Source of the DNA: Panopea generosa
Lineage: Eukaryota; Mollusca; Bivalvia; Adapedonta; Hiatellidae
Assembly (NCBI GenBank): GCA_029582155.1
Contig: CM055898.1
Coordinates: 19,990,229 to 20,054,228 of the forward strand
Length of the DNA stretch: 64,000 nt
Reading direction: 5' to 3'
Both the position numbers and the translations under genes were made by a program. The notes under the pieces are model-generated. The model saw only the letters and a program-made list of their open reading frames with translations. It had not been told where the DNA came from and searched no databases. Positions within the stretch are counted from its first letter, which is position 1. Every line of letters starts with the position of its first letter. Of the stretch, positions 6,788-59,666 are shown piece by piece.

Positions 6788-7476
6788 TATTTAGTTTATG
6801 TATGTCATGTTTATGCTGCTTCAGCTTTGTCTAATGCTAAATGCCTCGTCATCTGATTTAGATATTATTTTCGGTTCAATTATTTCTTTTAGTTAAACTA
6901 TATAATATAAAACAATGAATAGATAAAACAGGACACTGTTCAAATTAACAAAAGTTGACACTATTTAACACCGACGAATACCATATATGTATTGTTATCT
7001 GCTTATTGAAACTATAGTGGGATAAAAAACTAACTGACAAGGAGCTATGACATTACTGTAACTTTTAACGTGTTTTTAACACTCGTATAATAATGTATTT
7101 ACATACAGAACAACATATAATTACATGTTTCAGAAAGTGTATATGTTATACATATACCGGCAAACGAAATACTGTTTATCTCTATCTAATAGTAAAAGTG
7201 AATCGTAACTTATTTCATCTAAGACTGTATCGAAACCTGATTCGATATAATGTTTCATATTGCATATTTTGTTTAAATGGTATATGTCCATCTCGTTTTC
7301 TCGTTGTCTTTATTGAATATTTAAACAACACAGTTAGTCTCTGGTAAATGCTGTATTTTCATAAACATTTTCAGTGTCGAAATTGGTGTTCTCGTAGACA
7401 GCTGTAATGAAATAGTGATGATAATAATAATAATAAAATTCCTACATTTGGTATTTAACCTAATGCTACAAGAGAA

Positions 7477-7775: not shown

Positions 7776-7857
7776 GATCGTCCATGTCGTCTTCGTCTTC
7801 TTCATCATCCATAGTAATGAAGTCTCTCAAACAGTCATGGATATACACATACTGGTC
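7776..7857 (-). CDS. RPTP exon 24: end of phosphatase domain, acidic tail
   Basis: An 82-nt exon, phase 0 in (attgtccag) and phase 1 out at a consensus donor gtaagt. It reads DQYVYIHDCLRDFITMDDEE then DEDDMDD. D-Q-Y-x-Y-I-H-D-C-L completes the Q-loop and last helix. The run of Asp and Glu after it is an acidic tail. If the donor is ignored the frame stays open for about 35 more codons before a stop. The next exon below 7776 was not identified. Its acceptor lies inside a 117-bp triplication. Confidence 0.9.
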
Positions 7858-8646: not shown

Positions 8647-8782
8647 CTCCGTTTGTACCATATTACATCTCTGGTTCCTCATTGACAAAACTAGATTGTA
8701 TATGTCCACCTCGTCATGGTCCCGAATATGCTGTAGGAGGTGGTCCACGGCTATAAAGGTTCCCGTTCTACCGACACCAGCA
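8647..8782 (-). CDS. RPTP exon 23: phosphatase P-loop and Q-loop
   Basis: A 136-nt exon, phase 2 in (accaacag) and phase 0 out (donor gtaata). It completes HCS and reads [40 protein letters not shown] and MVQTE. It holds the phosphate-binding loop A-G-V-G-R-T-G and the start of the Q-loop. Both versions of exon 22 join to it in phase. Confidence 0.96.
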
Positions 8783-10709
8783 CTGTTGGTAATATCATCG
8801 CAACAAAAGTTAAATTAATATATCAATGAGAGTATAAAAAAGGTTAGTATTGTTAGGTATGCAATTATCAGGATTTAAATGATAATAGTTAGCATAGCCA
8901 TAGTGGTTTATTTCTAATGATGAGATTCAGAATGGTAGTTAAACGTAATCGAAGACTTGTTCAAAATACTTGATCATGTTAGATTTTTAAATGTGTTCTT
9001 AATATATAAAACTTGTTTAAACATTTCTAATCAGTTTGTTTAAGGTATTTCATTACAAATATTAAAATTAATAAATATTCATAGGAAGAATAGCTGAACC
9101 CTGATCGAAGGTCATCATCTGAATGTCCTAGCATATAACTTAGGTTTGCAATGCACCATCTTCATTGTGCACTGTTATTCTTTCATCTGTAACAATATTA
9201 CAGAGCGGAAATGGCAATAAAATAACAGTTAACGAAATACCATTGATCGTTGATGGAAGAAGATGGAACTAAAACCAGACCAATCTATTCCGTATGCAGT
9301 ACAAACACGAAATCACAACATTTGACCGCTAGTTTAACAGCAGCGATATCATTAACAGATAAAAATGGAACAATTCACCCTGAAGCCGTTTCTGTGTGTA
9401 AAATACGTTCTTAAAATCTCCTTTTTTAAAATAACCGGCTATATTAGAAAGTACAATGTATATAATTTAACATTCGATCGTTGTTCATGACTTGACTGCA
9501 TGAAATTAATTAATGGTTACATAGCTACCAGGCGGACAGGACATTAATACAATTTTGACTATCACAATTGACGCAACATGTATACCTAAACTTTGACACT
9601 GCAACTATACTGAGTACCAAAAGTTTTGTCAGATAAAATACATGGGAAATCCCATAGGGTACATTTAAAGCGGATGTGTGTCTGGATATGGAATTGATCT
9701 TTTGAAGATGCAGTCTGAAATTGAATTTGGATTTGTAACAAACAGAATCGGTGAATAAATCAAATATGCCAACTTTCATTCTGGTGATATCTACCATTTT
9801 TAATCATTATTTTTTCAATGTAAAGGGAGGTAATTTACCGACTTCATAACTTTCAAGAGGGAATGCATGTACAGTGATGACATATTATGCATTGTTTTAC
9901 AAGTTTATATTTTCTGGTGTTTTATCTCATCATTAACACAGTTTCAGTTGTTTGATTAGACAAGCACTATGCTTTTATTTGACAAATGTTTTACACAAAG
10001 GGGCAATAACTTTCAATCAGACCATAAAATAAATCCAAATTCTGTTGATGTTGCTCTTAGTACTTTGACAAATATAGTTGAATTAAAAAAAATATCAAAA
10101 TCATTTTTTGTATTATAGTTAAACTTGCATGAAAATACCGACAAAACTTTTGGAACTCAGTAAACTTACACTACCTGTATTTGTTATATACCTCGGTATT
10201 CATTTCAGTATACACAATGTACAAGAGAAACAAGGACGGACGGACAAATATACATATGAACTAACTCAATCTAGGGCAATAGCTGTATCCTGTGGTAATT
10301 TATTCGGATTGTGGATAAACCACACATATCGATAAACCAACTATAAGCACATGCTTTGAAATGGAATGATATATATATACTATGAGCAGTTATCTAGTCG
10401 CAATCAGATTGACATTACAGATTTATATGTTGTTTTAATATGCTAGTTGATGTATTTGTTGACAATGCTGGGAACATGCTTATACACTAGTATTGTACGC
10501 ATGCTCTATGTTAACTATGTAAACTTTAATTTGAAAAAAAGAATTATATTTCGTACGTTATTTTATTCAGCACCACCAAATTATGTTATTTTAAAACACA
10601 CCGTATACCAGTGCCAAATAAAACAATGTTTTATTTCATTTATATTGCACTTAACAGTTTAGCTTTATTCATAAATTTGGTTGTGCAATATCAGTCCATG
10701 AATACTAAC

Positions 10710-10867
10710 CTGCAATGCACAACCATTGGACCAGTTCTGTCTCTCACATCGTTGGAGTGTTGTCTTACAGCTTTTACAAAATCCAAAAGTAGTGATGGAC
10801 TATCTGGACATCCCATATCTGGCCATTTAAGGTATGCAAAATGTCGCACCAATCTCCTGGTTTCTTT
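10710..10867 (-). CDS. RPTP exon 22B: alternative WPD-loop exon, WPD version
   Basis: A 158-nt exon, phase 0 in (acceptor atgttatag) and phase 2 out (donor gttagt). It encodes KETRRLVRHFAYLKWPDMGC then PDSPSLLLDFVKAVRQHSND and VRDRTGPMVVHC, with AG completing the Ser of the P-loop. It contains the general-acid Asp of the WPD loop and the catalytic HC, so it builds an active enzyme. A cag acceptor 11 nt further in is possible, but it would shorten the segment and change the phase. The chosen start aligns position by position with exon 22A (10 residues to H-F). Confidence 0.88.
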
Positions 10868-12466
10868 CTATAACATGCATAACATACTGGGATCATAACA
10901 TGAGGTTGTACAATATCATGCATGTGTCTGAAAATGTTGGTAAAATCTGTCTGTATACGATGAGGTTTCGAAGAACAGAAATAAATAAGACAGAAAGACC
11001 AGTAATTCCTTCGACTTATACACATTTAACATATAACTGAACTTAACATTGCTTGTCAACATTGCTTGTCATGAATATTATTCCCGCTTAACTAGAACAT
11101 GGTCGTGTGATGACAATAAGATACATTTTCGTGATTAACATTAAGTTGATCCGTATTAAGACATGGTGAACATAGAGATGTGCTTATGTAAGGTAAATAT
11201 TTAGGAAGAATTGCCCCTTGCTTGAGCAAATATGGTTATGGGGTAAAAATTACTCCCTGTTTTATGTTCCATGTTTCAGAAAGGCAGTTACGTAAAAGGT
11301 GTATTCTTGCTTTACAAAAACAAGATGGCTAAGTACTGGAATGTGAAAACGATGTACCATTGTCTTCACAGGATGCTTTGGGATATAAAGGTTTGTGATT
11401 ACAATATATCGTTTTGAAAATGGCTGATTGCTTCCTTTATATTTGATAGACTTGGTCTCCACTAAAACAAGTAACTATGTAATAAAGACGGTTCTAAGCT
11501 TAAATGTTGTTATGTAACAAATACTGATCACGCACTGCCTTCAGAACAAGATGACAATGAGATAGATAATGGTCGTTGCTGCTTAGACATGATTGGTATG
11601 CTGTAACGATGGATCCTCACAATAATAAGGATAGAACGCAGTTGTATCTCTCTTGTAATGTATAAATTAAACTTAACATTTACATCGGTTAGTGTAAGTA
11701 TCACATGGCAAAATGTTATATAATTCATGTAGTTCTCGCTTTCATTTCTCTTCCAATGTTTATGTGTTGTTTAATCTTAATGTTACTCTAGGTATTGGAC
11801 TGCTTTCATTGAAATGTTTATTTATTACTGTTACAAAATCAAATTTGATTTAAACATTACCATGTTATGCTATAAAAAAGGTACATGTTGAAAACCCATG
11901 CATCAGTTTGAAATAAAATTAACGAGTTCTTCTAATGCTATAAAAGAAAACTATATGATACAAACACATATATTAGTTATAAATTAGATTAAAGTCTATT
12001 AAAAGTATCCCCTGCAAACATTAAACACATCCACGAGGAAAAAGTATCAGAGTTTGGTTTTATTCAGTCCATGAGGGACAATGCAATATCCCACACCTCT
12101 CCTGTCCGTAGATTTCTATGATTTCAAAGAACCAGTAATAATAACAGAAACTGTAAAACAACATGAAATACATAAAAAACATCATCAAAAGAAATATATA
12201 TGTACTTGAGTACCATCAATCAAAGAATCAAAATAAGAAGCAATATCTATACATATATGCATAATTACAAACATATATCTATCTATCACATAAAATGCAA
12301 ACTAAGATTATATATATCTCAATTCATTATTCATGTGCAATACAGATCTCTACATCTTAACAAGCATAAACATTTGTTTAAAACTAAAACATAACATCTA
12401 TGGAATAGTCACTATCCACCATGTCACGGAAAATGTTCACCATTTATGATTGAAGCATGCTTATAC

Positions 12467-12618
12467 CTGCAATGGGCCAAAAGAGGGCCGCTAGGAAATG
12501 GAGGTCGGTACTGCCTCACCATGGCTATAAAGTTAACAACGGGCCACGTTCTACTTGGACAGCCAAAGTATGGCCATTTTAGGAAGTGAAAATGTTTCAC
12601 TCGCAGTGTTTTGCTGCC
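12467..12618 (-). CDS. RPTP exon 22A: alternative WPD-loop exon, WPY version
   Basis: A 152-nt exon, phase 0 in (acceptor cacacgcag behind a T-rich tract) and phase 2 out (donor gtataa). It reads GSKTLRVKHFHFLKWPYFGC then PSRTWPVVNFIAMVRQYRPP and FPSGPLLAHC, with the last two bases AG completing Ser with exon 23. It is homologous along its length to 10710-10867, but the catalytic Asp of WPD is Tyr. It is open throughout with intact splice sites, so it does not look like a decayed copy. No second P-loop exon follows it before 22B, so it is not part of a separate D2 domain. Used instead of 22B it would give a domain with an intact [10 protein letters not shown] but no general acid. Confidence 0.82.
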
Positions 12619-12771: not shown

Positions 12772-12894
12772 CAACTTAACTTCTATAATCCTAATTGTAT
12801 AATCAGACAAGTTTGACTCCGACTGTATCGAAACGACGAGATCTCCATAGCACAGCGGTTCGTTTAGTTCTGGCCAGTATTTGTTGCATTTAGC
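12772..12894 (-). CDS. RPTP exon 21: phosphatase domain, KCxxYWP
   Basis: An exact 41-codon exon, phase 0 in (ttttag) and phase 0 out (donor gtaagt). It encodes AKCNKYWPELNEPLCYGDLV then VSIQSESNLSDYTIRIIEVK and L. The K-C-x-x-Y-W-P motif and the following beta strands are standard. This exon is the common upstream partner of the two alternative WPD-loop exons. Confidence 0.95.
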
Positions 12895-13410: not shown

Positions 13411-13695
<285 letters not shown>

Positions 13696-14077: not shown

Positions 14078-14154
14078 AGGTATGTAGTTTGCATTTATAT
14101 AATCAGACCCTATCTCATCGTCCATTGGTAGTAACTTCACTCTAGAATGGTCAA
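14078..14154 (-). CDS. RPTP exon 19: phosphatase domain, DHSRV...YINANYI
   Basis: A 77-nt exon, phase 1 in (ttgcag) and phase 0 out (donor gtaaga). With the T of the previous exon it gives F, then [20 protein letters not shown] and ANYIP, two signature blocks of classical tyrosine phosphatases. Confidence 0.95.
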
Positions 14155-15354: not shown

Positions 15355-15445
15355 ATGCCAAGATATTCGTATATCTATTTTTAGGTCTGCAGGTCTGCTG
15401 TTCGGCTGCAGTTGTCGGATTAGCTGGACTGTTTTCTTTTAGCAT
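15355..15445 (-). CDS. RPTP exon 18: phosphatase domain, pTyr loop
   Basis: A 91-nt exon, phase 0 in (acceptor cgtag) and phase 1 out (donor gtgagt). It encodes MLKENSPANPTTAAEQQTCR then PKNRYTNILA. The K-N-R-Y-x-N-I-L motif is the phosphotyrosine recognition loop. An internal cag could serve as a cryptic acceptor but would break phase with exon 17. Confidence 0.93.
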
Positions 15446-16439: not shown

Positions 16440-16527
16440 CTTATATGCATCTGCAAACAGTAATCCGCTATCATTTTTCAGTGTTTGAACAAATGTCGGG
16501 AAATCTGCAAGTTTAATTTGTCGCGGT
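16440..16527 (-). CDS. RPTP exon 17: start of phosphatase domain
   Basis: An 88-nt exon, phase 2 in (tttttccag) and phase 0 out (donor gtaaac). It reads PRQIKLADFPTFVQTLKNDS then GLLFADAYK. This is the alpha1'-alpha2' region that opens receptor phosphatase domains (R-P-I-x-L-x-x-F ... F-x-x-E-Y in relatives). Confidence 0.92.
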
Positions 16528-17365: not shown

Positions 17366-17465
17366 CCAGCCTGTCGTCTTCTCATGAAAAATATAACACC
17401 ACCAACCGCAAGGACCACTATCAATCCAGAGACCAAGCCAGCAATTATGGGAGTTAAGTTAGGCT
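17366..17465 (-). CDS. RPTP exon 15: transmembrane helix
   Basis: A 100-nt exon, phase 1 in (ttcag) and phase 2 out (donor gtaggt). It reads KPNLT, then the hydrophobic stretch PIIAGLVSGLIVVLAVGGVI followed by FFMRRRQAG. The run of about 21 nonpolar residues ending in F-M-R-R-R is a single-pass helix with a positive-inside stop-transfer signal. Confidence 0.93.
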
Positions 17466-18934
17466 CTGAATAAACAAATAATTGGCTTATGTGAGTTTTC
17501 TATTTTTCGAATTACATATATATGCGTACGCGTTTGCATGCATGTGTTATCAAGTATATATTATATAACTGATATTCAATTATGTTTCGTAGTGATTCAA
17601 AGTATAATCAAAGCAATTATATTAACGTTTATGTAGATAGTTGTTAAACGATTTCATTGTGTTTTTTAATCATAAATAGATTTTACACAATACTATACAA
17701 CTAAATTATAAATAGATTTTATATTATGCTATACAATTATATTTGTTATGCACTTTGAAACTGTAATTTATTAAATATATAAATGAGGTCAATTCAACCA
17801 AGCAAAAATCATCAACGTATTTGTTTCACAAAGCAAATCTGACTAACACATAGTTTTAATAATAATCATATTCTCTATAACAAACATGTATGCACGATGT
17901 AAAAACAGAGGGCACTCAAATGAATTTGACAATCACAATCTTATATCAAGACAGTTTTCTTGAAAGAAGAAATTTATTTCATGTGTATTATTTACAGGGA
18001 ATAGAAAAATAATAGAAATATAAAAGAGTAATATTTCACAGGCAATATCTATGACAAAAAAGTTAATGCGTAAGATATTATTTCAGATTCTAACATAACA
18101 TAAGAAACAATACGCATTGGTACATGTATATGTGTGGCTTTTACAAGTGATTGGCTGTTAGTTTACAATACAGTGCTTAACTTCAAATAACTAAACTAAA
18201 ACGGTTTAAGTCCTCAATAAGGGCATTCAACAATATACAATGTCTCGAGCAAAGGGCTTCTGTAAAATTAAATGAATCGAACATTAAATGCAAGCATTTT
18301 ACAAACTATGCGAGTTGTGTTCAATTTATAATGGTGATGGTCTTTGCAGACTATTTTCATTTTCAACCGTTAAATGGATTGATCATTGTTAGCTATGTAG
18401 AGTTTTAACCTTTCAATCCAATTTTAGAATGTATCTTTATAATCGAATTTATGGATACCCAAGATATACCGAATAACAGAGTAAATAGCTTTTCTAGAGG
18501 AATAACGCCGTGCAGACATAATTCGTGCATGTCTTGGGAATAGGATATGACCACATACTAAAATCGTACGTCATGTTCTGTATGTGAGGAGTAGAAGAAT
18601 GTTTCAAATTTTTAGATTATTATTGGATGAATTGTAAAAGTTGTTTTAATATAAATCATAAACAGGCAAATCCGCTGAACTGACATCCTTCACCAAAATA
18701 TTGTCATTTGATTACTACGGATGCCTTTAAAGTGATTATAAATGGTTTATTAATATTATTTTGTATAATATACATGTAATTTGTAAGAAGCTTGATAACT
18801 ATGATATTAGGATCTGTGTATGAAAAAGGATAATATGTTCTTTAATGTTAACAATAATTAATGTGATACTTATCAATGCTTATGACAAGTTACTGAATAT
18901 CCCATCCACAGTTAATCAAACTTTCTGAAAGGGA

Positions 18935-19055
18935 TATGAATGACTAGGATTGGGCTGGATGATGAGAGGATATGTATGACTGGGGTGGGGGCTGGATGAT
19001 GAGAGGATATGTATGACTGGGGTGGGAGACGACTGGATGTCGAGAGGATATGTTT
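18935..19055. repeat. About 50-bp tandem repeat, 2.5 units
   Basis: Two near-identical units contain ggctggatgatgagaggata then tgtatgactggggtggg, with a third, diverged unit. G-rich on the plus strand. Confidence 0.85.
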
Positions 19056-19464
19056 AGAAATTAGAACAACAACGTAAAGTAACACATTCAACATTAAAAG
19101 GTTTAGCATTACTTGCTTAGTACAAACTATAAGTAAGTGTCGTTATTGTCAAATTTTACATCACACCAAGGCAATAACTATTGGGTTACTATGGCCTTTC
19201 TTGGCGGGTGTCTTCGTTAAAAAGGTAAATTCATTTTAGCTCGATTGCAAAGAAAGCTTAGCGTTCATATGAATTGCTCATAAATTCACTTCCAGGGTAG
19301 AACAAATATTTGTGCTTCTTTAATTAGAAGTATCAGGTATAGCAGTAAACGAAACCGCCATCTCTGGCGTCAGCGGCCATTAGAAAATCGTCCAACTTAG
19401 TTGATTAATTGTATTAACATCCGACTAAAGTAATTGCCCCGGACGGATATGTAAATGTAAGCAA

Positions 19465-19655
19465 GGCGGTAGAGCAGCAGATAAAGTGTAGGCAGCTCAC
19501 ACCAGGTGTCGCTAGTCAATTCCTGGTTCGACCAAACGGTCTCTCAAAAACTTACTACTGTTTGTTTCCCTGAAAACGGCTAAAAGTAATTTAAATAAGC
19601 TCTGAACTTTCTCAGCAAGCGAGTGAAAGATTTGTATAAATAAAAGTCCAGTTTC
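19465..19655 (+). mobile_element. tRNA-derived SINE, decayed, family 2-like
   Basis: Contains ggcggtagagcagcagataa and the B-box-like cctggttcgacc, then aaacggtctctcaaaaactt. The arrangement follows the 35570 copy, but the match is weaker. Confidence 0.55.
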
Positions 19656-20396
19656 ATCAATTCAAGTTAAATAATTCTCGAGTTAATTGTAAAACCTCAT
19701 CGGGCTATGGATATAAATATTTTTACCAATTGTTCTTAAAGTCCGATCATCTTATACACAATAATTGTCTTGGACGGTCAAAATGTCGTATTTTATATAT
19801 TAAAGGACAGTTACTGTATAAATCATGACAGCGATTCTGTCAAATTATGCAGTATGTTACATTGGAGTAAACATATGTACCAAATGCCTTGTCAACAAAC
19901 TTATGAATCAATACTTCTTATAATATGTTTAGAAAGCATGCACGTATTTATAAAATAAAATAATGATAAAAGATACAAATAAAATATACTAGAATATTTG
20001 CTTAAACATTTCTAATCCCACAAAAGCTTTACGTACATACATTATCCCCTCAACTCATTTCAAATAACCCACATAATCGGGAAAAACATGAGTGTCAAAA
20101 GTACAAACAGATAATCCACAATGTACCTGGTTAGCTTGGACACACAGTCAGACGTATTACACTGAAGCAAATTCCCTTCACCTTTGGTGATAGATGATAA
20201 CAGATGTGAACATAGCTATGTGTATAAAAACACATATTTTATATGTTAAACCGTAGTACTTTGGAAATAATAAAGCATGTTTCCTAATATTTTACATCAG
20301 CCAAAAAAAAGCAAATTCACACAACACTCTTTTATTGACATTTCTATCAATTCCGCTTAACATTAAACCAACCTCAACCTTCATATATCAGCAATT

Positions 20397-20975
20397 CTTA
20401 TATAAATAAATGAAATCTGATTGGCCAGAATGATCCCTAATTGAATAAAATACTATATGATATTGAACAATTTTTACTTTCAGTTTTACAAAACTGTGCA
20501 TAAAATTACAATATAACACGGTTACTAAAAATAGCCCCTGGGAATTCCGAAAGCAACGTCTAAAACCGAGATGTTCCGAATGCGGCGTTGTTTTCAAATG
20601 GCTGTTTACAAGAGATTCGCGTCCGATTTCAGCAAACTAATCGACAATAAAGATGCCGAAAGACAAAAAAGTGCAACTGTTCAATCAATTTATATATGTC
20701 GCAATTATTTAAGAGAGAAACAATTGAATGATTAGTTTAAATATAAAGATAACAAACATTTATCAAGATGTGACTGTGACTGAGTGGTGTTAAGACGTAT
20801 GAATTTTATCTAAGTTTTTTTTCCGCCATAGTTCGAATCCCACCCGGGAAATTATTTTTTCAATAGCTTTTATTAAAATGGATTTAATTTCTTTATCTAA
20901 ATACTATTCTTACATAGAATGTAGTGACTTATTGTCATATTGCACAGCTGAAAAGTCCATAATTGTACACTAGAA
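20397..20975 (+). repeat. Long interspersed repeat with embedded tRNA-like sequence, copy 1
   Basis: Matches 37510-38235 in reverse orientation. Shared blocks in order: tataaataaatgaa, ttggccagaat, ttttacaaaactgt, gggaattcc, gagatgttccgaat, gttttcaaaatggctgt-like, gattcgcg and gatttcagc. Then a tRNA-like part follows (gactgagtggtgttaagacg and gttcgaatcccacccggg at 20775-20855) and finally attgcacagctgaaaagtcc. No coding frame is seen. Confidence 0.78.
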
Positions 20976-29274: not shown

Positions 29275-32200
29275 AATAATTATTAAATATGTTTTGGAGA
29301 AATATTAGTTATATTGTTTAAGTAGCCGTTAAGTTTAAAAATATCGTTAAGGTCTTGCCCCGAAAGTACTTTATCGATTTCATTAAAAGAAACCACCTGA
29401 TGTGAATATGATCCCTGAATATTTAAATTTATCTACACTCTCGATGTCTGTATCATTATATTTAAATCTCAGGTATTTTGGTAAACTTCCTCCCTTTTTG
29501 AACACTATAATTATAGTTTTTGCCGCATTAACTGTTTATTTCCACCTAGTAAAATACTCTGCTAAATCATTTAATGCATTTTGTAAATCTTCTGCCGCCT
29601 TTGCTAACAAAATAATATCATCAGCATATAACATAAACATAGATTAAACATATAATTACCGACATCAATTCCATCAATCCCTTTTTGTATAAATTTAATT
29701 CTAAGTCATTTAAATTCATGCTAAACAGAAAGACATTCACCTTGACGGACTCCGAGATAACACGATAATTCACTGCTTAATGTATTCATATATTTTACTT
29801 CTGATTTTATACATTTATACATGGATTTAATTACCTCCAAAATTCCCCTCGAACCCCTAATTTAATCAGTTTATTTTATTATCTACAAAAGAAACAGTCA
29901 AGAGTCACTCGTTAGTTTAAAGTAAGTGAAATAAGCCTGTGTAAAACAAAAATGTTGTCTGACGTGCTCATACCTTTTCTAAATCCTGCTTGGGCCTCTA
30001 CATAAACTTGATAATTTTCTGCCCAATATATTGATCTGTTATTTAGAACTCTTGTCAATAGTTTGTCCAAGATATCTTATAAAGTAATCCGCTATAATTG
30101 CTTGGATCACCCATTTAAAAAAATATTTAAAAATAGGAACTATATGACATTCGCTCCAACTATCTGGAAAGTAGCCACGCGCAAGAGAGGAATTAAATAG
30201 TTTGTTTAAATAATGTAATGACACATTTGAACCGTTCTTAAAGAATTCATTTAATACTAAATCTGGACCACCTATTGAGCAATTCCTAAGCTGTTTTATT
30301 GATTTAAGCAATTCATCATCTGTTATTTCAAAATCTATTTCTTCAAACATAGTTTGAAGTTCGCCATTTATGTACCCATCATTAAAATATGAAATACGTC
30401 TTGATCTGGTTGATGAAAAAGGCTCTCATGATTATTTATAGCCCTAACATAATGCAAACGAGTCAGCTGAGGCTGTGGTCAAAGTTGAACCAAAAGAAAC
30501 ACCTTTCAATAGTATCCAATTATCCTTAGCATTTGATAATCTGTTTGACTTTCAAAACGTTTTTTTTTTCTTATATGTTCATATTCCGACCTCGCTTTGC
30601 ACATGTGTATCCTATTTGTATCACTTTTACATTTCATGTATGTATTTAAATAATCAAAAAAAAATATCCCTTGCAGTCTAACATTTGTCGTCAAACCAAG
30701 ATTTTTTGTTTCAATATTTTTGTCATGTTTTAAGTCACATATGTTTTTTTTCTGAAACAGAGGAGAACATATCTCGTTTATAATATCAGTAAAATGTTTT
30801 ATATTTTCATTGACATTTTTATTACTGCTGTCGTTGATGTCGTTTATCAAGTAAATTATTTGAATTTTAATTTTCTATTTTGACATTCCCACTGCAATCG
30901 ACCTAAATGAACTATACAGATTTACTGCATTTCATTTTCCAATAAAAAATAGTTGCAGATGGGTGGAGCTAAAAGGACCAGTGTGCAAATCATTGGTTGC
31001 ACGATTGTGTGTTGCTGGTGAGACGCAACGTTGCCGTCAGATTCACGTGACGTTTGCCTTAAGTTGTGCTACAAATGCGTGCATTTATTCAGTATGTTGA
31101 CAACGTCGCCGTTACATTCATGACATTGGCTTTGCGGTTTAGTGCATATAATAACGTTTTATATTTCCATTGATATTTTTATCACAGCTGTCGTTAACGT
31201 CGTTTATCAAGTAATTTATTTAAATTTCGTCACAGTTTATTTTGTCTATATAAGAATCTTTTATGTCAGACGACCATTTATAATTAAAATCAATATTTTT
31301 CTGTCGGTGTATTGCAAGTGTTGGCGTCACTTGTATTTCTTGATGTTTACATTGGTGTGCTCATTGAGAACTCAATTGCACAAAGGTCGGATAAGATATT
31401 GGGTTCTTTAACTGCGAATCTACCATATAATATACACATAGTGTACAACGCTATTTCTTAACGACCCGACAAATGTATACTTCCCGATATTACCATTCAG
31501 ACCTACCCGTACATTTAAGATTATTAAACAAGATTCTAACATCAACCTTTTAATACATTTTCGTTTTGATTTGTGAATTTTTATTCAGAAACTTGTGATA
31601 ATGGCAGGTCTGGCTGGTAGTCGTCCGGATGTACATCAACATGCATAGCAATATAATCGTCTTCTACTTAATATTTTAATTGTCCAATACGGCTATTTAG
31701 ATATCTCAGAATCATAAAAGCACTTTGTTCGTTTATAAAAATGGTAATGAATACCATTTTGTTCAAAGTTCTAGTATAAACATCTGTTTTAATGAAAGCT
31801 TCCCTGGAGCTTTATCTTGGAACTACGTAACATAAGCAAAGATATACGTCACGGTCCGAATTAAAAAATCACCTTTGCACCGTGGCATAAACTATCGTTG
31901 CTATCACTTTCTTAAAAACAGGCAATACCACCGGAATCGCGTTTGGTATTTGATTTTTTCTCAGTTCTATGCAATTTAAATATATGAAAACCGTCAAAAC
32001 ACATATTTGTTGATTTATTTTACCAAACTTCAGAAAAACACAACATATCACTTTTTTTTTTAAAAAATAAATCGTTTAGTTCAGGCGTCTCCAGCTTATT
32101 AACGTTTTTTTGTCACTAATCCCTGCATTTTTTAAAGTACACAGTTTAAGGGTACCTCCCATTTGTCCTATTTTCTGATAGTGTGGATAGCACGTACAGG

Positions 32201-47135: not shown

Positions 47136-47432
47136 AATAATTTTTGTATGATTGTTTCTAAATATCAAGATAACACTCTCACAAATTATCATGTTAATAA
47201 AACGGTATTCCACCTTATTTCAACGTATGTATTTATTTTGTATATATGCTTAAGTTCAATTAAATATATGTTCTTTTCTGTTCTGTATGATGTTACATCG
47301 AAAATAAGTAGTCCCGTATAACACAATTACACATCAGCTAAACGCATGGACGAACATAGTGATTATTTCAGTTAGGTGTTTTTTTTTTAATTACAACAAT
47401 TAACGGATAGTAAAAATTCAGAAAATATTTAC

Positions 47433-47729
47433 CTGCTATGGGTATCTCAATATATTCCTCATTTGAAAAGGGTCCTTGCCCAGCAGACGTTTCAGCAGCA
47501 ACCTTTACTGTGTAATTTCTATATGGAAGAACATTCACTGTAGTTTCGTTTACGTCAATGGTGAAGTCATAGCATTTGTACGAGTGTATTGCGTGCTCGG
47601 AGTTATTGGCGATACAAACATTGTATTTGGTCAATATTCCATTTGAGGGACAAGGTCGTTCCCAATTGATATTTACTTTATCCGCTGTGATGCCCGTATT
47701 TACTGTGACATTATCTATCTGACTAGGTG
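47433..47729 (-). CDS. RPTP exon 5: FN3-4
   Basis: A complete FN3 repeat in a 297-nt exon, phase 1 in (tttgcag) and phase 1 out (gtaaat). It shows APSQIDNVTV, KVNINWERPCPSNGILTKY with the core tryptophan, and LPYRNYTVKVAAETSAGQGP, the canonical F-G region. Cysteines at PCPSNG, VCIANN and YKCYDF are extra for an FN3 and may form a domain-internal disulfide. Confidence 0.92.
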
Positions 47730-50700
47730 CTGCAAAGGATATATGCTTGTTTAAATACCGAGTGTCTCTACGATTTGGTGAATATGTGGAAGACATAAAT
47801 AGATACAGCTTAAAAGTGGAAATATAACTAGAATACTTCACTGCTTTAATATAATTATATGTATAATAAAACTTGTTTTCATTCATAATTTAAACAAATT
47901 AAGGAAGCCTATACTTGAAACAGAACACTTCAGAATGACCGCCGATGCGTTCAACTCAACTTATAACAGAGTCTACTTGGTGTGATGGTATGAACGCACT
48001 GAAACAGAAGGCGCAATCACTTGAGTTTTCAAATAAGTAATAAATAAATAATAGTAGGTACATAGTAGGTAGTTTAATGGGCTTGTAAATGAAAACACTA
48101 CATGAACAATTTGTATATGTGAAAGACTGAAGTCTGTCTGATTGCTAATCGTCCATGTTAATGTTTTTCTTCCAAAAACAATTAAGTTTTATCGTTATAC
48201 TATTTTGATTAACATATTGTTCTTGAATGTTTTATACTAAATTTGATATGGTCAGACAACACTATAACTAAAAGTCTAGAGTATTAAATTTTCTATTTTA
48301 ATTAATATTTCAATATAATTATGCTTTTGCTGTTTTGAGATTCTCGACTATAAATAATTTAAATAACAATATGTTCATGATGGACCATAATCTCTCACCT
48401 GCGGCAGAGGTGCAAAGAAAGCAATTTTCTATATTGCAGAAGCCATACTGGTCAGTTGACATACCAAAGATAATTAACTACAGTAACTGTGATGAGGATA
48501 AAATAAAAACTGTACACGAGTACACACACACTATTAAATAACGCAAGTTCAATCAATTTAAAGGCGATAGCTCCAACTATTCTCGTAAAAGATAGTTTGG
48601 GATTGCACACGACATCAAATACACGCATAATTACTACTACACAAATATTTTGATATGGCGAATTCAAGAGCTTGTTCGAGATGTTATGACTATATATAAC
48701 TAAGTGTAAGTTTGGCGAAAATTAAAGGAAAACGACAGGTGCATTAATACACACAACGTCAAATAACGCAATGTGTGGATGATTCTAGAATCATAACTCT
48801 GATTGTAATCATGCAATTGGTCAGTTCAAGATTTAATTCAATATATTAATTATCACTACAAATGAAAAAGTTAGACGAAGTTCAAATGAAAACTACGAGT
48901 GCTAAAATAAACATGACAAAACCTTTACAGACAACGGACACAGGGCGATCAGATTACTAAAAGACCATCTAAAACTTTATAGTGCTGCTATTTGACTAAT
49001 GAAGTACTATAAATACCTGTTGTGGATATAGACATATGTTTCATTTTATTAAAGTATTAATCTGGCGTTTGTAGAGTCGTTAAATCATTCCACAATTTAA
49101 ATCATAAACGACAAGGACGGACAAGAACAGTAACCTTACACACATTAGGCAAGGCCAGGATTTTATCAATGATATTGAGATTTAGTAATGGTCTGTCAAC
49201 GTAAGATATCCATCGTGTATACTATTGATATTGCGCTTATAACAAAGCATTCAACATCATGTATATTTTGGCAATTTTAGGGCACATGAATCAACCAATA
49301 ATATGTTTATTTTAATTGTTCAAATATGTTATGTTTATTATTACAGCGTAAGTCAATTCTTTATTTATAGAGGGTGATTAGATTGAACAAGTTGGCTGCT
49401 TTTATTAAGGATAAATGATGTAACAGAGTGAATGAAGATGTGAGTCAGGGGTTGTCCGAAATATGCTTGTTTAATGGTGTAAGATGCAATATTTGAGTGA
49501 ATACAGGAAAGATAAAAACAACTGCGCACCGGGAATTAAATACACGGGTGATACCACACCCGATCTGGTTCCAGCTGACCCGGTCAATTTCCATCTGCAG
49601 GGAAAAGACTTATATGGTGTGTTAAAAGTAGTTATGATGTTTAAATGCATAAATCTGAATCATTATGCATTTGCATTTGCATATTCACTAAAAAAATATC
49701 TGAAAAAAAATGTGTCATGAATCTTACCTAGTATATTTCCAAACTTGTTTACTGTAATGTTCTATAAAACTAACTTTTGTGAAAATATATTTTTTAGATT
49801 AATTTGTGGATATATATGGATTTTTATAACGCGGTGAATGCCACACCGGTAAAACTAATTTATGAAAATGTATGTCCTTTGTATCTATTAATATAAACAA
49901 TTGTAGCTTTTTTATTTTGTTATTATTTTCATTGTTATGGTTTCAGGATATCATAATCATTGTAACAGTTGATTAAAAGCATGGCTATTTGAAAATAATT
50001 AACATTAACTCAGCGGGAATTTGTCAATTTGTAAAAAAAAGATTTCAAGGCCTAGATATGTTTTATTTTATTTTTCAATAGTAAATTATTTATTGACAAT
50101 GCATAATGATTTCAAATTAGTGCATTAAAACGCCACAGAGTAATTATAAAACACACCGTATTTGCCTTTTAATTGCAGCCGGAAAATGGCCGGTCAGCCG
50201 GAACCTGGCATGGTTTTAAGTACCACCCTAATCCCATAACGCACTAGTTTGAAAAGCAATGGAGACCTCGTTATTGCGAATCGCGCTTTAACACATTCGA
50301 CGCATTACATCAACCTTTATCATAGGCTACGGAATACTTTCAGCTTCACGTGGCTTTCCAGTCACATGATCATTGCCATTTAAAAATGGCTTCCACGCCA
50401 TTGACAACAACGCTGGTCAAATGTTTTGGCTGTACAGCAAACTACAAACCCTTCCCGTATCCAACAGGTAAACTCACAATACATTTCTCTTTCAGCTCGC
50501 CAAATTTATATTCCTTAAAACAGTATTTTCATAAAAAATGAAGATTGTGTTGATTTATTCCATGTTTGTTTACATTTGCGTTATAATAAGTAAATCAACA
50601 AGAACGTAGTTCATCATTTATTCCTGTAATTTATTCCTGTTTTTTTTTTGTCCTAATGGTAAATGTGATGAATTGTTTCTAGTTTTGTTGTCTGGTTTTT

Positions 50701-51992
50701 ACAATATGCTTATAATTGCATAAACTGTAATAACAAAGTTTAGTAAAAAAATCCTGAAATTTAGCCTGTTGCAGAGGTGAAAGTGTGTAACGAACGATAA
50801 CTCTGAGAAGGTGTTTGATGGCGAATGCAAATGTTTTTCAACATATGATCGTGACGTTTCAATATGGCAGCGCTCACAGTCAATTTCTAAAGTGGCCCTA
50901 AGGTAGGGTTCGGTCGCTCATGCAATGCCCTCTTTAACACATCATACATCATATTACAAACTTGAACAGAATTGTTACGTTATGTTGTATGTTTTAATTG
51001 TTTTGTTATTAGTTTTAAAATATTGCTATTCTCTGTTAGAAATTTTAGTTATTATATCAGAATATTTGTTATACATATTTATAGAAAAAAATCATCTTAG
51101 CTTTTAATAAATTAACACCAATTATTACCAGATTTTTCGTACGTCTCATACGAACCATGCAACCAGTTAACAGCGTGTCTCACAGTAATAAACCATAAAA
51201 AAATTGAAAACATAGATGGCTTATCCATTTTATCTTCTGTAACAGTATCAGAATTTTACAGAAATCACTACGTGACACTATCACTGATGTAATTGTTGAA
51301 AATCCTTGACTTAAACAAACAAAAATAGTGTATACGGCTTTATTAGCTGGTAAATGTACTGAGACATAGTTTAATGCATCAATAAGAGAGGTATATTATT
51401 AAGTAACAAATGCAAAAGTGAAAACATAGCGTACTAACCTGCATTTGAAATATAAGTGTGATCTACCTTTGCATTACTTGACCATTATTCTCATTGAAAG
51501 AGGAGAGATGCCATTACATAACACAGATAGATTATTAATATTATATTGTTTTGTTAAATAGGAGATATATTTTTATTAAATATAACATAATATATTATTA
51601 TTAAAAAGGAGAAATATATCAGTGTTCAATAGAAGAGATATACGTTACTATCTCGGACAAATAATTCGATATTAAATAATAAATATATCCTTATTGAATA
51701 GCATTTTGTGTTTAAATCTAATATTTCAATTTTACTATTAAACAAGAAATACATGTATATCATTATGTAATAAAAAGACACAATTAAAAAGGTGAATTAG
51801 TACATTAGAAGTATGTGAAACAAAGCAAATAATCAACATATTATATCGACTGACAGAATACGCCGCGCAAAATAGCATGAAATCATGACTATCTATAACG
51901 GAAAGGGAAAACACCAGTAGGTGATTCCGAACATCGTATCGCACTGTAAATACCGTGTAGAAATGGTTTATTATCAATAAAAAGTGATTTAC
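47730..51992. other. Intron 4 (exon 4 to 5)
   Basis: AT-rich, with one GC-richer patch at 50190-50490 (candidate exon) and another at 50760-50930. No domain-coding sequence is seen on either strand. Confidence 0.6.
50350..50500 (+). other. Candidate short coding exon in a GC-richer patch, unassigned
   Basis: From ATG at 50389 the plus strand reads MASTPLTTTLVKCFGCTANY then KPFPYPT and meets a good donor (aacag|gtaaac) at about 50467. The region 50190-50490 has more CG dinucleotides than its surroundings, and the ATG context (aaaATGG) is acceptable. I recognise no family and found no second exon. It could equally be a transposon fragment. Confidence 0.25.
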
Positions 51993-52325
51993 CTGATTCA
52001 AGCGTCCTAATAGAATTAAACGTAAATGGACTGCCTTCTCCAACAGATGTATGAGCAGTAACAGAAAATGTGTAATTCCAGTAAGGTAAAATACTAGCGT
52101 TGATTGTTATTTCAGTAGGGGGAATCAAATCTAAAAGTACAGGTTCAGTTATGGTCTTTTCTTCTCCTTCAATGGTAATACGGTTCTGGCACAGTTTATT
52201 TTTAAATGTGTATCGTATTGTGTAAGCTGTTATAACACCATTTCTTTCAAACGGTTGTTTTATACTCAGGCTAACAGTATTATAAGTGTAGTTTGTGATG
52301 ATGCTTCCAACTGGTATTCCTGGTA
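51993..52325 (-). CDS. RPTP exon 4: FN3-3
   Basis: A complete FN3 repeat in one 333-nt exon, phase 1 in (tttcag) and phase 1 out (gtaaat). It reads IPGIPVGSIITNYTYNTVSL at the start, has the N-G-V-I-T-A-Y turn, and ends with YWNYTFSVTAHTSVGEGSPF and RTLES. The core B-strand position reads SLSIKQP where most repeats have tryptophan, so this repeat lacks the usual Trp. It has several N-glycosylation sequons. Confidence 0.9.
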
Positions 52326-52933
52326 CTGAAATACAACAACACGAAATATAACACAACTATTACTACCTACTATTTAACTCTTTTGACATATCATTATTAG
52401 ATTAATACACTTGCTGTGTGGTTTACTGAACTTACTGTTGTTGTTTTTTTTTCCTGAAAAATATCCTTGTTATTCGCGAATGTGATATCACGAGTGACAT
52501 AAATTACATTTCGTATAAAATTGATCCGTGTTGCTTTTATTTTTTTATTGAAAAACTTATTTTCAATGCTAAAATATATTTATATTCGTCTTTATAATAT
52601 CACGATGTCGGTCCATAAACATAATGACGTTGACGGTGACAATATGCTCCGGTGTGAAATTATCCTCTGAGTAGTTACAAATATTTCGTCAAAGTCAGTG
52701 AAATCTTTAATTTAAGTAATTGGCCACTAGAAATGTTTTAAATACTCTTCACAATATCTTCATACATGTATGCTATGCAAAAACGATTTTTAATTTAATA
52801 TGAGTTACAGTATTATTTATTTCATTATCAATCTATTTACTCATTTTTATATTATCAATAACTGACTGTTTTCTTTCCAAACAATATTTAAAAATAATAC
52901 AGTAAATAAAACTCGCATCGGTAATTAACTTAC

Positions 52934-54099: not shown

Positions 54100-57000
54100 G
54101 TTTTAATCTGATTTTCTGTTAAACTTTAAATCAACACACAACTTTTACAACAGGAGAGTGTTGTTAATTTTCAAAAATGAATGTATTTCTGATATCAAAA
54201 CTTTGAATTTTTGTGTTGATAAGTTTTTAATCAGAGTTTTGTTATCAGATTGTAATAAATCTACGGTCTTGTACATGCTGTGGTTTCTTAAAAAATATGA
54301 TTTTAGGTACTGACATCTTATGTTATTATATGCACTGCATTCAAATAAAAAAATTAATTCGTCCGCCAAGATATAACATATTCTGCATTTTCTGTTTTCT
54401 TTGGGAGTTTTTATTGTTGTTTTTTTTCCATCGTTCTGTTTCTATTTCTACCCTATGCGCAGATACTCTAAGTTTTGTTAATTCTTTTAATTTTGGAATG
54501 TTCACTATTTGTTAATATAATTGAAAATTCAAGGAGAAATAGCCCTGTAAAATGTTGCCCATGAGGAGCTATTTAATCGTTCATCAATTTTTGAATATGA
54601 TTATCTCCTACTCTTTGTTTGAATGTTGAAAAAAAACATTTATATCACCCACTCCTTGTGCTAACGACACTCAATACAATCCTAATTTACATAATGTATC
54701 TTTGACAAGCGTGGCCTAATTAGTAATATTTGGTGATTTTTTCTATATCTTTTAACATCATTAAGTTAACATGGTGAAAATATTTTCGATTATTACTATT
54801 CAATACTTTGAACCAGTATTTCATTATTATATATATTCGCTTTTCATAGTAATTTGTTCTATCTTAATCGCTGTAGATAAAGTCATTTTGCGCCGATAGT
54901 TCTACACCTAACAACGATTTACAATTTCTATTTGATGCGCTTGAACATACACCCAAACTTCGCTTGCATCATATAGGAGTGACTAGTTTATCACAAACAT
55001 CCAGAGCATGTTTTTGCGATATATTAACTTTTTTTTAAATTAAATATAGCTTTTAGCTTGGCCGGCCAAAGATGTTTGAACATTGCTAAATGATCCGCCC
55101 GTAGTGAAAACAATGCCTAAGTTCGAGAATTTAATGACTATTTCCAGTTTTATATCATTAAAATAAAACTCCATGCTTCTCGATACCGTGCCTCCTTTTC
55201 TAAAGATCATAACCTTGGTTTTTACTGTGCTAAGTTTCCATCTATCACAATATTCATTTGAAATATTAAGACCTTTTTGTAACTTTTCAGCATTTGGCGC
55301 GAAGATTATAATATCATCCGCATACAATAATAAGAATACTTTTAGTAGTCCTATATCCAACCCGGCACTTCCTTTTAGAAAATATTCATTTTCTTAACCA
55401 TTTAAGTACATTGAAAACAGGAATGGCGACAAACATTTACCTTGGCTTAACCCTAGATAACATTCAAAACTATCACTGAAGGTGTTATCAAATGTTAACC
55501 TTGACCTTACATTTCCATACATTGAATTGATGATATTCAAAACCTTTCCTGTAACCCCTAATCTAATTAGTTTATACCGAATATGTTCTCTTACGACGTA
55601 ATCAAAAGCTTAAGAAAAATCTACCATGGTAGAAAAATAGCTTGTAACCATTATTTAACATATAACTAATAATACCGTGAAAAGAAAAAAATATTGTCTG
55701 TCGTTCCCATGTTTTACTTTATTCCCGCTTGTGGTTCAACATAAATGTAATATTCCTCTGCCAACTTGGTTAATCTGTTATCTAAGTGAATAATTTGTCT
55801 AAGGTACTAAGTAAAGTGATACCTCTGAAATGTCCAACCTAGCTTTAACTACCCTTTTTATGAATAGGAATAATATAATCATCTCTCCAGCTATCCGAGA
55901 AATAACCTTGCTTAAGGATTTTATTAAATAACTTTGTAATATAGTGAGCTAAATAATTCACTTCATGAATATAAAATTCATTTAGGACCATGTCTGGGCC
56001 TCCTGCACGACCATAACCTAATTCAGAGACTGCTTATCTCACTTCTGATTAAGATATAGGAATGTTCAGTTTATCAATCCATTATTTGTATTTCAGAGTT
56101 CAAAACAGTTTCGTTAAAATACATAACGTCCTCGTCCGCTTAAAAATGGATCTGTTGGGTTATTGATGGCCTTGAAATATTCTACAAATGTTTCAGAGAT
56201 TCTTTAAGTAATTTCCAGTATTGTTTAACTTTAGCATTTAACAGTTCTGAAGTTTTAACTTATCCTGTTGAAAATGAAAACTTCGGACGTTTTTTTCTTG
56301 TATACTGATCGGGCATTGACCATGTTTTCCTCTGATTTTTCTTTACAATATTCATTTAAAAACTTGTAATAAGATTTTCTAAGTGTATAACACTCATTAT
56401 TTAGAAATGAATTACTTCTCTTTGACTGCAAACATTTTCTGTTAATAATTATGATCTGACCACGATCTCTTTTCAAAAAGGGGTATAAGCACTTCATCGA
56501 TATTGTTTATAAAATTCGATATTGATGTATCAGTATCTTCTTTAGAATGAATATTATCTAATTCATTACTTAAAATATAAATGCCAGTTTGAAATTTCTA
56601 AGGCGATAGCTTATGCTTATATAAATCTTTCTTTAGACTATCCCATTTATAAAATGGTTTTGCATATATCCGATGCTCTTTCCTGTGCGGCGGATTTGTT
56701 TAATTTATAATTAACAGGTGTGCTAAATGAGCTCGCCAAAGAAAATTCAATTAAACAGTGATCACTTTGGATATTTAGTCCATTAATACAAAATGACATA
56801 AAAATGGAAGAATGTCAGGATTAACAATACAATGACACTACACTTTTTCCAGAACTACCAACATAGGTAAAATCTCCAGTATTTTTATCCTCACATACCC
56901 TCCCATTTGCTACCCTAAGAAAATCAAGCAATTATTGCCCATTTGAATTTACAATTTTATCAAATGATTTACGTGGCAATTCTATATCAATTACATAATC

Positions 57001-57230
57001 ATCGGGAAGTATATCTGCATGAAAATTGTTGTCAGTGGCAACATAATCGAACTGCTCACCTATTCTGGAATTATAATCCCCTACTAGCATAAAGTTACAC
57101 TTGTCATTTGTTAATGTTTGTTTATGTTTAGTATTTGCGATAATTAGTCTGAGATATTTAGGATTAGAAGGCAACCAACATTTATAAATATTGTATGATC
57201 GAATATTTCGTTTGAATTTTGTAGTTGTTG
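54100..57230 (-). mobile_element. Decayed LINE: endonuclease and reverse transcriptase
   Basis: Minus-strand order from 57.2 kb down: endonuclease block CNFMLVGDYNSRIGE and LPRKSFDKIVN (57170-56930), the endonuclease end with a Q-S-D-H-C motif near 56770, a linker (56500-56250), RT finger and palm fragments at about 56000-55800, the YADD catalytic motif in LLLYADDIIIFAPNAEKL (about 55330), and a C-terminal region FLFECSAYNNIRCQY (54369-54145). It carries frameshifts and stops. It resembles the element at 29-33 kb in its RT text but is a separate insertion, in the intron between RPTP exons 2 and 3. Confidence 0.85.
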
Positions 57231-57731
57231 TGTGTGTTGTTTTTTTTTTAGAAATACTTCTACACGAAAAATATAATATATTATGTGTGAATTATATTTT
57301 AAAAATATCAATTCTTCGAGAAAAAACAATCAAAGTAACGTTTGAGATTTTATTACCTGTTTTGCACGAGAATAACTTTAGTATTATGTTTCATGAGAAT
57401 TTCTTCCAATGAATCGCATATCAAAGAAATTATTGTTAGCAATAATGTCAGATTCTATGTTAAAGAATTTGAAATTTTTAAAGAAGATCTGCATATTTAG
57501 AGTGCATTTACACAACATATATATATTCATGCACTGAGGCCAACATTAATTAGCTTTTCGACTAGTTTTATATTAACATGCTACTGTTATTTTGTTCATG
57601 ATTGGAATCTTTAAGAATCTAACACATTTGGTTAGTATTCGCATTGTAGTTCCGATGTATGCTAAATGGTAAAACAATTTTTAGCATATTATGCTACTAT
57701 TAATTAAAATAATGATTAAATTACTACTTAC

Positions 57732-57907: not shown

Positions 57908-59369
57908 CTATAACATAAAACAAACATTTCGATTTCATGTAACTTTTTTTCTTTTCTATACTAGAACGATTTTGTTGAACTGGCCTTTTGCTAAATCATA
58001 TAAATAAATAAATAAAGTTCGATTTAAAAAATATTAGGCTTGTCCTTTCATCTATATCATCTGTGTTTAGCGCAATTTTCGATATATAAAATGTGTATTA
58101 TGACATTTATTTTATTTTGTTGAGAAAGACATATGCATATGACAAATACATATGCATGATTCTTTGATTATTACTGCATGTATATACTTCGTATATAAGT
58201 ATCTAATGACGAACTGAAGTGAAAAATATAACTGGTCACAGTTTGTTCTATTATCATTCGAAATATCGGAATACAAGAAATATATATTTTATCATTATTA
58301 GTATTTGCAAGCATCTCGGATACCGTAATGCAACAGTATGATACTATATCAATGTAAAAAGACACAATTTCACTCTTTATTAATACTAGTCATCAGATGC
58401 AAACTTTAAGTGGGGAAAAGTTCGCATGAGGCATTGACTTAAACTCCTCTATTAATTCAAAACTCTGTGATGTTCAAAACGATTTCTTTAAAGTGTACGG
58501 CATAAAGTTATGAAAAGTGTCGAGTTTCTGTTTAGTTCCATTTTCCCAACACTGAAAAGAATGCACATAACTATATTTTGTCAGTAACAACGAATTTGAT
58601 GTTGACCCAAGTGACATAAAAATTTCATCTTAAGCTATATTCTATTATAAGAAGCATACCCACAAGATTTTATCGCAATGTACTAAGGAAACAAAAATTA
58701 TTATTTGGAGGAAAGCATTTTTGCTCTTTTTTAAATATGGACCATGACCAAAGTGACCTGAAACAACACAAAGCCAAGTATACTTTTATCATAAATGTTT
58801 CAACTGATATAGAGACATGTAATATATATATATACGACAAAAAGAAATATATGTCAAATTATAAAATCTAAAGGTTTCATAAATTCAGAGAGACTCGATA
58901 TTATATACATTGTCATTAATTTGGTTAACAGTTTTTACTAACGCAACAAATACGTCATATTTATTTTAAGCAAAAAAACTATATAAACACTATTGTTCGG
59001 CATGAGGCAAAATCAAAAAATTCTCATCATATTTGATTATTACTTATGTTAATTTTAAATCTGTTTTTTTCCTGGCATTTCAAATTATATAGAAATTCAT
59101 ATTGAAATTAGGTTTCTATTCTTAATTTTGACGGATTGTTTGTTGTTTTGCTTTTCATTAAGGGCTGTTGGTTATATGATAAATTATATAAAAGTATAAT
59201 ATTCATCTTCATACATGTTCAAAACTGTAGATATGTATTTCAAACATCGAATGCTTAGCACAAAACTACCCTATCTATCTTCTATGTCTAAATGGAGTAA
59301 GACGTAAAGTTTGCATTAAACTATCGATATTATTAAAAAAACGTTATTTTATGTACATATATGCTTTAC
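57908..59369. other. Intron 1 (exon 1 to 2)
   Basis: AT-rich sequence without a recognised element. Confidence 0.65.
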
Positions 59370-59666
59370 CTGTTTCATGAGTGCTTATCGATATGTTTTG
59401 GTTGATAGTTGGTCCGGTTTGGTTACCAAGTGTAGCTCGAACTGTTACAGAACAAAATGTCCCGGGATCCAGACCAGACATCGTCGCCGAGTTGTCAGTT
59501 GTGTTGTAAATGTGTGTACTTATACTACCGTTGCCATTTGGGCTGGTACACGTGAACTGTACATGGTAAAATTCGACATTTCCTTCTGGCTTTACCCAAT
59601 GTATCTTCATTGTCGAACTATTGAGTTCAGGTATAACTGGCAAAATGTTGCTGACGGGTCCCGGTT
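59370..59666 (-). CDS. RPTP exon 1 (first visible): FN3-1
   Basis: A whole FN3 repeat in one 297-nt exon, phase 1 in and phase 1 out (acceptor ..taag, donor gtaaag). It starts EPGPVSNILPV and shows the B-strand tryptophan motif MKIHWVKPEG, then MSGLDPGTFCSVTVRATLG, the E-F region with the usual L-x-P-G turn and a V-x-A-like strand. Several N-x-S/T sites suggest a glycosylated ectodomain. Its phase-1 start requires an upstream exon, which I do not see before 64000. The acceptor aag is less typical than cag, but it restores a full FN3 start. Confidence 0.85.

Follow-up and report, generated by a model that had tools for sequence, protein, structure and literature searches.

Two homologous exons for the same catalytic segment of a receptor-type tyrosine phosphatase lie in tandem in a gene of the bivalve Panopea generosa, and the locus raises the question of whether splicing could choose between them and what such a choice would do to the enzyme. 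The gene lies on the minus strand of the window, by which we mean the whole analysed stretch of 64,000 nucleotides (assembly GCA_029582155.1, contig CM055898.1, positions 19,990,229 to 20,054,228). An earlier note on this DNA had proposed that the two exons, 22A and 22B, are mutually exclusive and would switch the WPD loop between WPD and WPY, that is, between an active receptor and a catalytically impaired one.

Anatomy of the exon pair

Exon 22A (12467-12618, minus strand) is 152 nt long, and exon 22B (10710-10867, minus strand), which encodes two residues more, is 158 nt long; both lengths are 2 mod 3. On the minus strand, 22A has the acceptor ACACGCAG and the donor GTATAAGC and reads in frame 0 from GSKTLRVKHFHFLKWPYFGC to GPLLAHC, and 22B has the acceptor TGTTATAG and the donor GTTAGTAT and reads in frame 0 from KETRRLVRHFAYLKWPDMGC to GPMVVHC. 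Each is flanked by AG/GT splice sites, entered in phase 0 and left in phase 2. Joined to the single P-loop exon, either one leaves the frame open through to the same stop; a join of 22A to 22B, or one that skips both, runs into early stops. When the whole genome was searched with 22A, the query matched 22B of its own locus (E 8.6e-5), a homology beyond chance, and the genome-wide matches of both exons rule out that either is a chance open frame. The description of the pair in the earlier note is borne out by the sequence and the genome-wide match in its homology, its phases and its good splice sites, and WPD in 22B and WPY in 22A of the window copy are also as described; joined translations confirm that either exon alone restores the frame and that both or neither shifts it.

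Several features that can accompany mutually exclusive exons were looked for around the pair. Incompatibility of U2 and U12 splice sites is an optional mechanism for such exons, not a requirement, and was not found: the donors of ten exons are GT and, by eye, of the ordinary type. Donor strengths of -7.2 kcal/mol for 22A and -7.7 kcal/mol for 22B do not separate the pair from constitutive exons, the other eight exons ranging from -4.3 to -9.5 kcal/mol. A scan of 3989 bases gave 13 inverted repeats, counted without a chance control, and docker/selector pairing between the introns around 22A and 22B was not demonstrated by it. The 50-base windows adjoining the two exons are 90-100% conserved between two subgroups of the paralogues described below; other intron windows are as conserved (for example, 96% at 11501-11550), so the flanks are not clearly special.

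A receptor phosphatase gene with one catalytic domain

Upstream of the pair, read along the minus strand, come a transmembrane exon (17366-17465), recognised by eye from its hydrophobic stretch, a juxtamembrane exon (PRQIKLADFPTFVQTLKNDSGLLFADAYK, 16440-16527), exon e0 with the KNRY phosphotyrosine-recognition loop (15355-15445), and the constitutive phosphatase exons e1 (DHSRVKLLP...NANYIP, 14078-14154), e2 (13531-13665) and e3, also called exon 21 (AKCNKYWPELNEP...IIEVKL, 12772-12894), which exits in phase 0. Downstream on the same strand lie the single P-loop exon (SAGVGRTG...QTE, 8647-8782, 136 nt), common to both isoforms, the C-terminal exon p2 (DQYVYIHDCLRDFITMDDEEDED, 7776-7857) and the last coding exon p3 (7334-7401), which carries two YENT motifs and the stop. 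From the transmembrane exon to p3, AG precedes every exon and GT follows every one except the last. For the ectodomain, all three open frames given to Pfam contain a fibronectin III domain (fn3; minus strand, 59347-59667 with E 2.4e-8, 51892-52356 with E 1.1e-7 and 47371-47889 with E 5.8e-7), and further FN3-like open frames exist.

The gene has a single PTP domain. Pfam returns Y_phosphatase (PF00102) as one stretch, with E 3.4e-82 for the 22A form and 3.7e-86 for the 22B form, and a scan of the minus strand over the full window finds the P-loop motif AG[IVM]GR[TS] at one position only, 8781. A P-loop exon between 12466 and 10868, which the earlier note had named as the sign that 22A belongs to a separate domain, was found neither by tblastn nor by the motif scan; over the A-B introns of six paralogues, no tblastn match was better than E = 1.1. 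The best single-domain structure matches are 3s3e, 2pi7, 2g59 and 2ahs. Ptp10D, CRYP-2, PTPRO and PTPRB lead the single-domain relatives, after ten tandem-domain entries whose scores, ranked above those of the R3 members, add two domains. A search with residues 1040-1230 is dominated by tandem-domain proteins of the LAR type (among the best 120 of 7839 matches), and the best named protein relatives are molluscan (Tegillarca, Dreissena, Solemya and cephalopods). By its predicted domains, an FN3 ectodomain and one PTP domain, and with R3 members as its closest single-domain relatives, the window gene is an R3-like receptor tyrosine phosphatase, and the one P-loop motif, the fn3 domains and these relatives support the same classification made previously.

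Other observations concern the window at large. No Rfam family matches the window at gathering scores. At 54148-57291 and 30042-30874, several open frames that lie between FN3 exons resemble by eye pieces of reverse-transcriptase-type elements. Within the intron between 22B and the P-loop exon, about 0.5 kb (9651-10150) has no counterpart in four sister copies (windows of 0% identity) and is possibly an insertion; gap columns between the window copy and those four copies, which all carry WPD in 22A, come to about 1.3-1.4 kb in all.

Six sister genes on one chromosome

Genome-wide searches covered 1.47 Gb in 39 contigs. Exon 22A gave 48 matches, six of them at 92-100% identity (the five other 22A loci at 92-96%), and exon 22B gave 137, six of them at 94-100%. 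Pairs of 22A and 22B stand at six places on contig C5 (20.00, 20.21, 20.38, 20.57, 21.07 and 21.51 Mb), spread over 1.5 Mb; the six paralogues are the window copy and the loci L029, L030, L031, L032 and L033. In every one, 22A precedes 22B across an intron of about 1.6 kb, and e1, e2, e3, 22A, 22B and the P-loop exon follow one another in the same order. Because the same A-then-B pair recurs in five further genes on the chromosome, a mutually exclusive pair is the best reading, and we consider it probable, on the gene structures, that six sister R3-like genes share a two-exon mutually exclusive cluster for a conserved exchange of the WPD-loop cassette. What had been claimed for one gene would thus extend, as a tandem pair built for exclusive use over the WPD loop, to six; the active/dead role claimed with it does not extend to them generally.

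The pair is not universal: in two further loci, L034 and L035, the only exon of this kind is B-type, with 60% identity to 22B. They align with each other in two BLAST pieces (97.6% and 99.5% identity) over most of 10 kb and may represent one block present in duplicate.

At its phosphatase end, the window copy has L029 as its nearest relative (3.4%). Window positions 18000-20500, in turn, resemble the L030 region at 93% and the L031 region at 91% along their full length, and match the L029 region in pieces only (81-88%). This comparison rules out that the window copy and L029 are plain haplotypes of one locus. Judged from these alignments, the gene array is a mosaic of paralogues, so one tree fails over its full length. 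In L032 (C5:20208501-20218500), a one-base difference in e1 breaks the frame, which counts against the pair reading; it is either a recent loss or an assembly error, and the private changes counted in the other phosphatase exons of L032 are silent.

Phosphatase-domain exons are clustered on C5, C14, C19, C1 and C3, with at least 170 matches (best 150 of 860 candidates scored), and by this measure the phosphatase family is heavily expanded in the genome. On C3, L049 (1085-1613; C3:29577885-29578413) and L050 (986-1519; C3:30225286-30225819) show three near-identical tandem exons of the P-loop type, about 197 bases apart. AG precedes all six and GT follows five of the six, and one L050 copy has an in-frame stop. 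This array could be a recent tandem exon duplication, in which exon choice would be possible. In another locus, L048 (3355-3712), SAGIGRTGYFVIYD or a close variant occurs as four short minus-strand copies, with a spacing of 62 bases among three of these.

The general acid of exon 22A

Codon 17 of exon 22A reads GAC (Asp) in L030, L031, L032 and L033; L029 has AAC (Asn) there, and the window copy has TAC (Tyr). The replacement of the acid is therefore not conserved across the related genes, with WPD in four of the six paralogues, WPN in one and WPY in one; the general-acid codon of 22B is GAT (Asp) in all six. In the window copy, WPY stands in 22A while the Cys and Arg of the P-loop stay and the phosphotyrosine loop is intact.

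A search limited to the 22A segment yielded nine proteins from 12 candidates, all nine with LKWPDFGC. One is from Solemya velum, one from Acanthosepion, one from Octopus bimaculoides, four are from O. vulgaris, which come from one contig and so are not independent, and two are from other sources; acid-less relatives could be under-represented among them, since the query carried WPD and candidates had to share short exact words. Tegillarca P0002, a gene prediction without e3, reads HFLKWPDFGC. From WPD in four of six paralogues, in all nine proteins and in Tegillarca P0002, it follows that 22A with WPD is very probably ancestral. Exon 22A looks like the ancestral molluscan cassette, with WPD as its probable starting state; 22B looks like a second cassette, also WPD-bearing; and WPY, private to the window copy among the sequences compared, looks like a recent change there. 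In the same segment of other phosphatase genes, WLD, FPD and WTD occur (L037 3057-3209, L038 5715-5861 and L047 4884-5012).

With the change from Asp to Tyr confined to the window copy, an active/dead switch is unlikely to be what the pair has long served for; it would be at most a property of the window copy and one relative. The 22A isoform of the window copy, if made, is predicted to be strongly impaired and possibly substrate-holding. The proposed alternation between WPD and WPY may hold for the window copy and is not supported as a general mechanism.

Constraint on the two exons and alternative readings

Changes were counted by parsimony on a fixed tree and compared with intron rates (3907 ungapped intron sites). 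Among the four WPD copies, exon 22A has one change against 13.2 expected (P 2.6e-5) and exon 22B has six against 13.7 (P 0.017). On the branch between the subgroups, the counts are about 1.7 against 9.2 for 22A (P 0.005) and zero against 9.6 for 22B (P 7e-5). At the window tip, 22A shows about 2.7 changes where 2.6 are expected, and 22B one where 2.7 are expected; at the L029 tip, the figures are 0.7 against 2.2 for 22A and five against 2.3 for 22B, so that constraint on 22B is not visible there. These counts indicate that both exons are under selection, with strong constraint on 22A in the four WPD copies. In the window copy, constraint on 22A is not detectable, which counts against the pair reading, as does the pN/pS of 2.84 for exon 22A over the six copies (pN 0.0167, pS 0.0059); four other exons measured have ratios of 0.09-0.15, with pS of 0.07-0.10. 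Exon 22A has few changes in total over the six copies, mostly protein-changing, and its low silent divergence would fit internal splicing signals, the numbers being small.

Protein-changing (N) and silent (S) changes were sorted by hand for each codon. Summed over six phosphatase exons, the changes are 12N:12S for the two tips, window and L029, and 4N:21S for the rest of the tree (Fisher p 0.016); with the first Asp change assigned to the time before window copy and L029 split, the counts become 11:12 and 5:21 (p 0.065). The per-site N/S ratio is 0.31 for the two tips and 0.06 for the rest of the tree. Taken together, the two copies are not neutral (12 of 24 changes N, p 0.006, on 593 N and 181 S sites), and nor is the window copy alone (6 of 13, p 0.017). 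The lineage in which the acid was lost is probably, though not certainly, under looser or altered constraint.

The alternative that survives best is that 22A, or the whole window copy, is decaying, the exon being little used or unused and the loss of Asp an early sign. We take this as a serious possibility, although short of a probable one. It agrees with a window exon 22A that changes at the intron rate and with N:S counts of 6:7 at the window tip and 6:5 at the L029 tip, against 4:21 elsewhere, and sister copies could cover for the window copy. However, window exons e0 to e3, 22A, 22B, the P-loop exon and p2 show no stop, frameshift or splice-site loss, and the distance of 12N:12S from neutrality means that some constraint still acts on the domain taken as a whole.

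A second alternative is that the loss was selected, and that splicing would choose between an active receptor (22B, WPD) and a dead or substrate-trapping one (22A, WPY). We regard this as unlikely, given that WPD is kept in 22A of four of the six paralogues and in all nine proteins with a 22A-type cassette, and that protein-changing substitution tends to be commoner in the copies without the acid (p 0.016 or 0.065, by the two counts above). In its favour are the intact phosphotyrosine loop and P-loop that accompany WPY, the equally acid-less WPN of the nearest relative, L029, and the intact frames and splice sites of 22A in both copies. PTPRU, described in the available part of its report as a receptor pseudophosphatase that binds substrates of active relatives (PMC7320164), also speaks for it. 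We further offer, as a doubtful conjecture, that the array holds a splice-selectable cassette converting stepwise from Asp (four genes) to Asn (one) to Tyr (one) and gaining a built-in pseudophosphatase isoform; if true, the six genes would form a natural series in which a decoy receptor can be seen arising with no separate gene to encode it.

Tandem-domain receptor phosphatases are common, but it is highly improbable that 22A and 22B stem from two domains (D1 and D2), a reading we reject on the one phosphatase exon set and single P-loop exon of the window gene and on the A-B introns of six copies, none of which holds a P-loop exon, or from a broken or misassembled duplicate, as the arrangement repeats at six places and the window copy and L029 are not simply two haplotypes.

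History of the pair

A tree of exon 22 was built from 20 chosen segments of 50 residues each, a length that accounts for its moderate supports. In it, Solemya falls with the A copies (UFBoot 77, FastTree 0.79), as does Tegillarca, less clearly so (UFBoot 47, FastTree 0.89); P0001, Dreissena P0003 and L034 fall with the B copies (UFBoot 76, FastTree 0.86). A tree of the rest of the domain, with eight sequences, groups the window gene with L034, apart from Solemya, cephalopods and fish (support 97). The simplest reading would be an exon duplication before the split of the window gene and L034, followed by loss of the A exon in L034; an exchange of 22B between genes is a possible alternative history.

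In P0001, a JGI contig of 1420 bases, a 22B-type segment is joined to the P-loop without an intron, and in P0242 and P0244 (contigs 5024 and 4933 bases long, from the source lgn, which we take to be Logan assemblies) an A-type segment is joined to the P-loop. All three look like cDNA. This suggests that each cassette type is used in some mollusc-like organism, and does not imply both in one gene. Among the sequences retrieved, no locus with both exons was seen outside this genome, which counts against the pair reading.

Proposed mechanism

Under the reading that we prefer, mutually exclusive cassette exchange in six sister genes, the spliceosome would join exon 21 to either 22A or 22B, and that exon to the single P-loop exon. 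The swap would exchange one structural cassette, presumably, as the known fold suggests, the segment of beta-strand, WPD loop and alpha-3 as far as the HC of the P-loop, and would leave the phosphotyrosine loop, the P-loop and the Q-loop fixed. Products of double inclusion or double skipping would be removed via their frameshift (NMD), a backstop to splicing regulation of the kind described for mutually exclusive exon clusters in the accessible part of one article (PMC6071210).

Since the general-acid Asp is present in both cassettes in the ancestral and majority state, the exchange would likely be one of tuning rather than on/off, with its effect on WPD-loop dynamics (turnover and pH response) and on the substrate surface. 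WPD-loop differences are held to drive the rate differences between PTP1B and YopH, according to the available text of PMC8031367. On that view, the choice between two cassettes that both carry Asp would adjust rate or specificity, and cassette exchange probably tunes catalysis or specificity. In the window copy and its closest relative, 22A would have moved away from this state by losing Asp, to Tyr and to Asn respectively. In PTPRK-D1, turnover falls about 115-fold when the Asp is changed to Glu (PMC7320164, available part), and the Tyr form is for that reason expected to be badly impaired.

Comparison with known systems and significance

The gene is like the R3 receptor phosphatases (PTPRB, PTPRO, PTPRJ, Drosophila Ptp10D and the molluscan PTP10D/PTPRQ-like proteins P0241-P0249) in having an FN3 ectodomain and a single PTP domain. 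The nine molluscan-type proteins retrieved have the A-type cassette only, as the query selected for that type. We know of no alternative catalytic exon in R3 receptor phosphatases. The closest precedent is ACP1, a small cytosolic low-molecular-weight PTP that belongs to another PTP class, has an unrelated fold and is without a WPD loop. To our knowledge, no acid is lost between its isoforms. As in the candidate pair, tyrosine phosphatase isoforms arise in ACP1 via the choice of one of two exons: IF1 and IF2 use the mutually exclusive exons 3 or 4 and differ in activity, in the portion of the source available (PMC3785452).

PTPRU and D2 pseudophosphatase domains are receptor phosphatase domains that likewise lack the WPD acid, and substrate competition has been proposed for them (PMC7320164, accessible part). 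There, however, the loss is fixed in the gene and not chosen by splicing, the motif is WPE rather than WPY or WPN, and in PTPRU further changes lie in other catalytic loops. Tandem homologous exons with a frame-restricted choice are also found in the Dscam, 14-3-3zeta and Mhc clusters (PMC6071210, in part); unlike in these, it is a catalytic loop that would be swapped in the Panopea generosa gene. Open-access titles and the openings of abstracts, which represent part of the literature, gave no mutually exclusive catalytic exon in receptor phosphatases. PTPRS is named among human genes with mutually exclusive exons, their location in the protein being unstated in the excerpt available (PMC5740500).

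Differences in rate between tyrosine phosphatases are attributed to the motion of the WPD loop, and a family that swaps its WPD-loop cassette by splicing, most members having the acid in both versions and two having lost it, would give natural loop-swap enzymes on a constant scaffold. Such an exchange could let a receptor behave differently as a catalyst from one cell type to another, with no need for a second gene.
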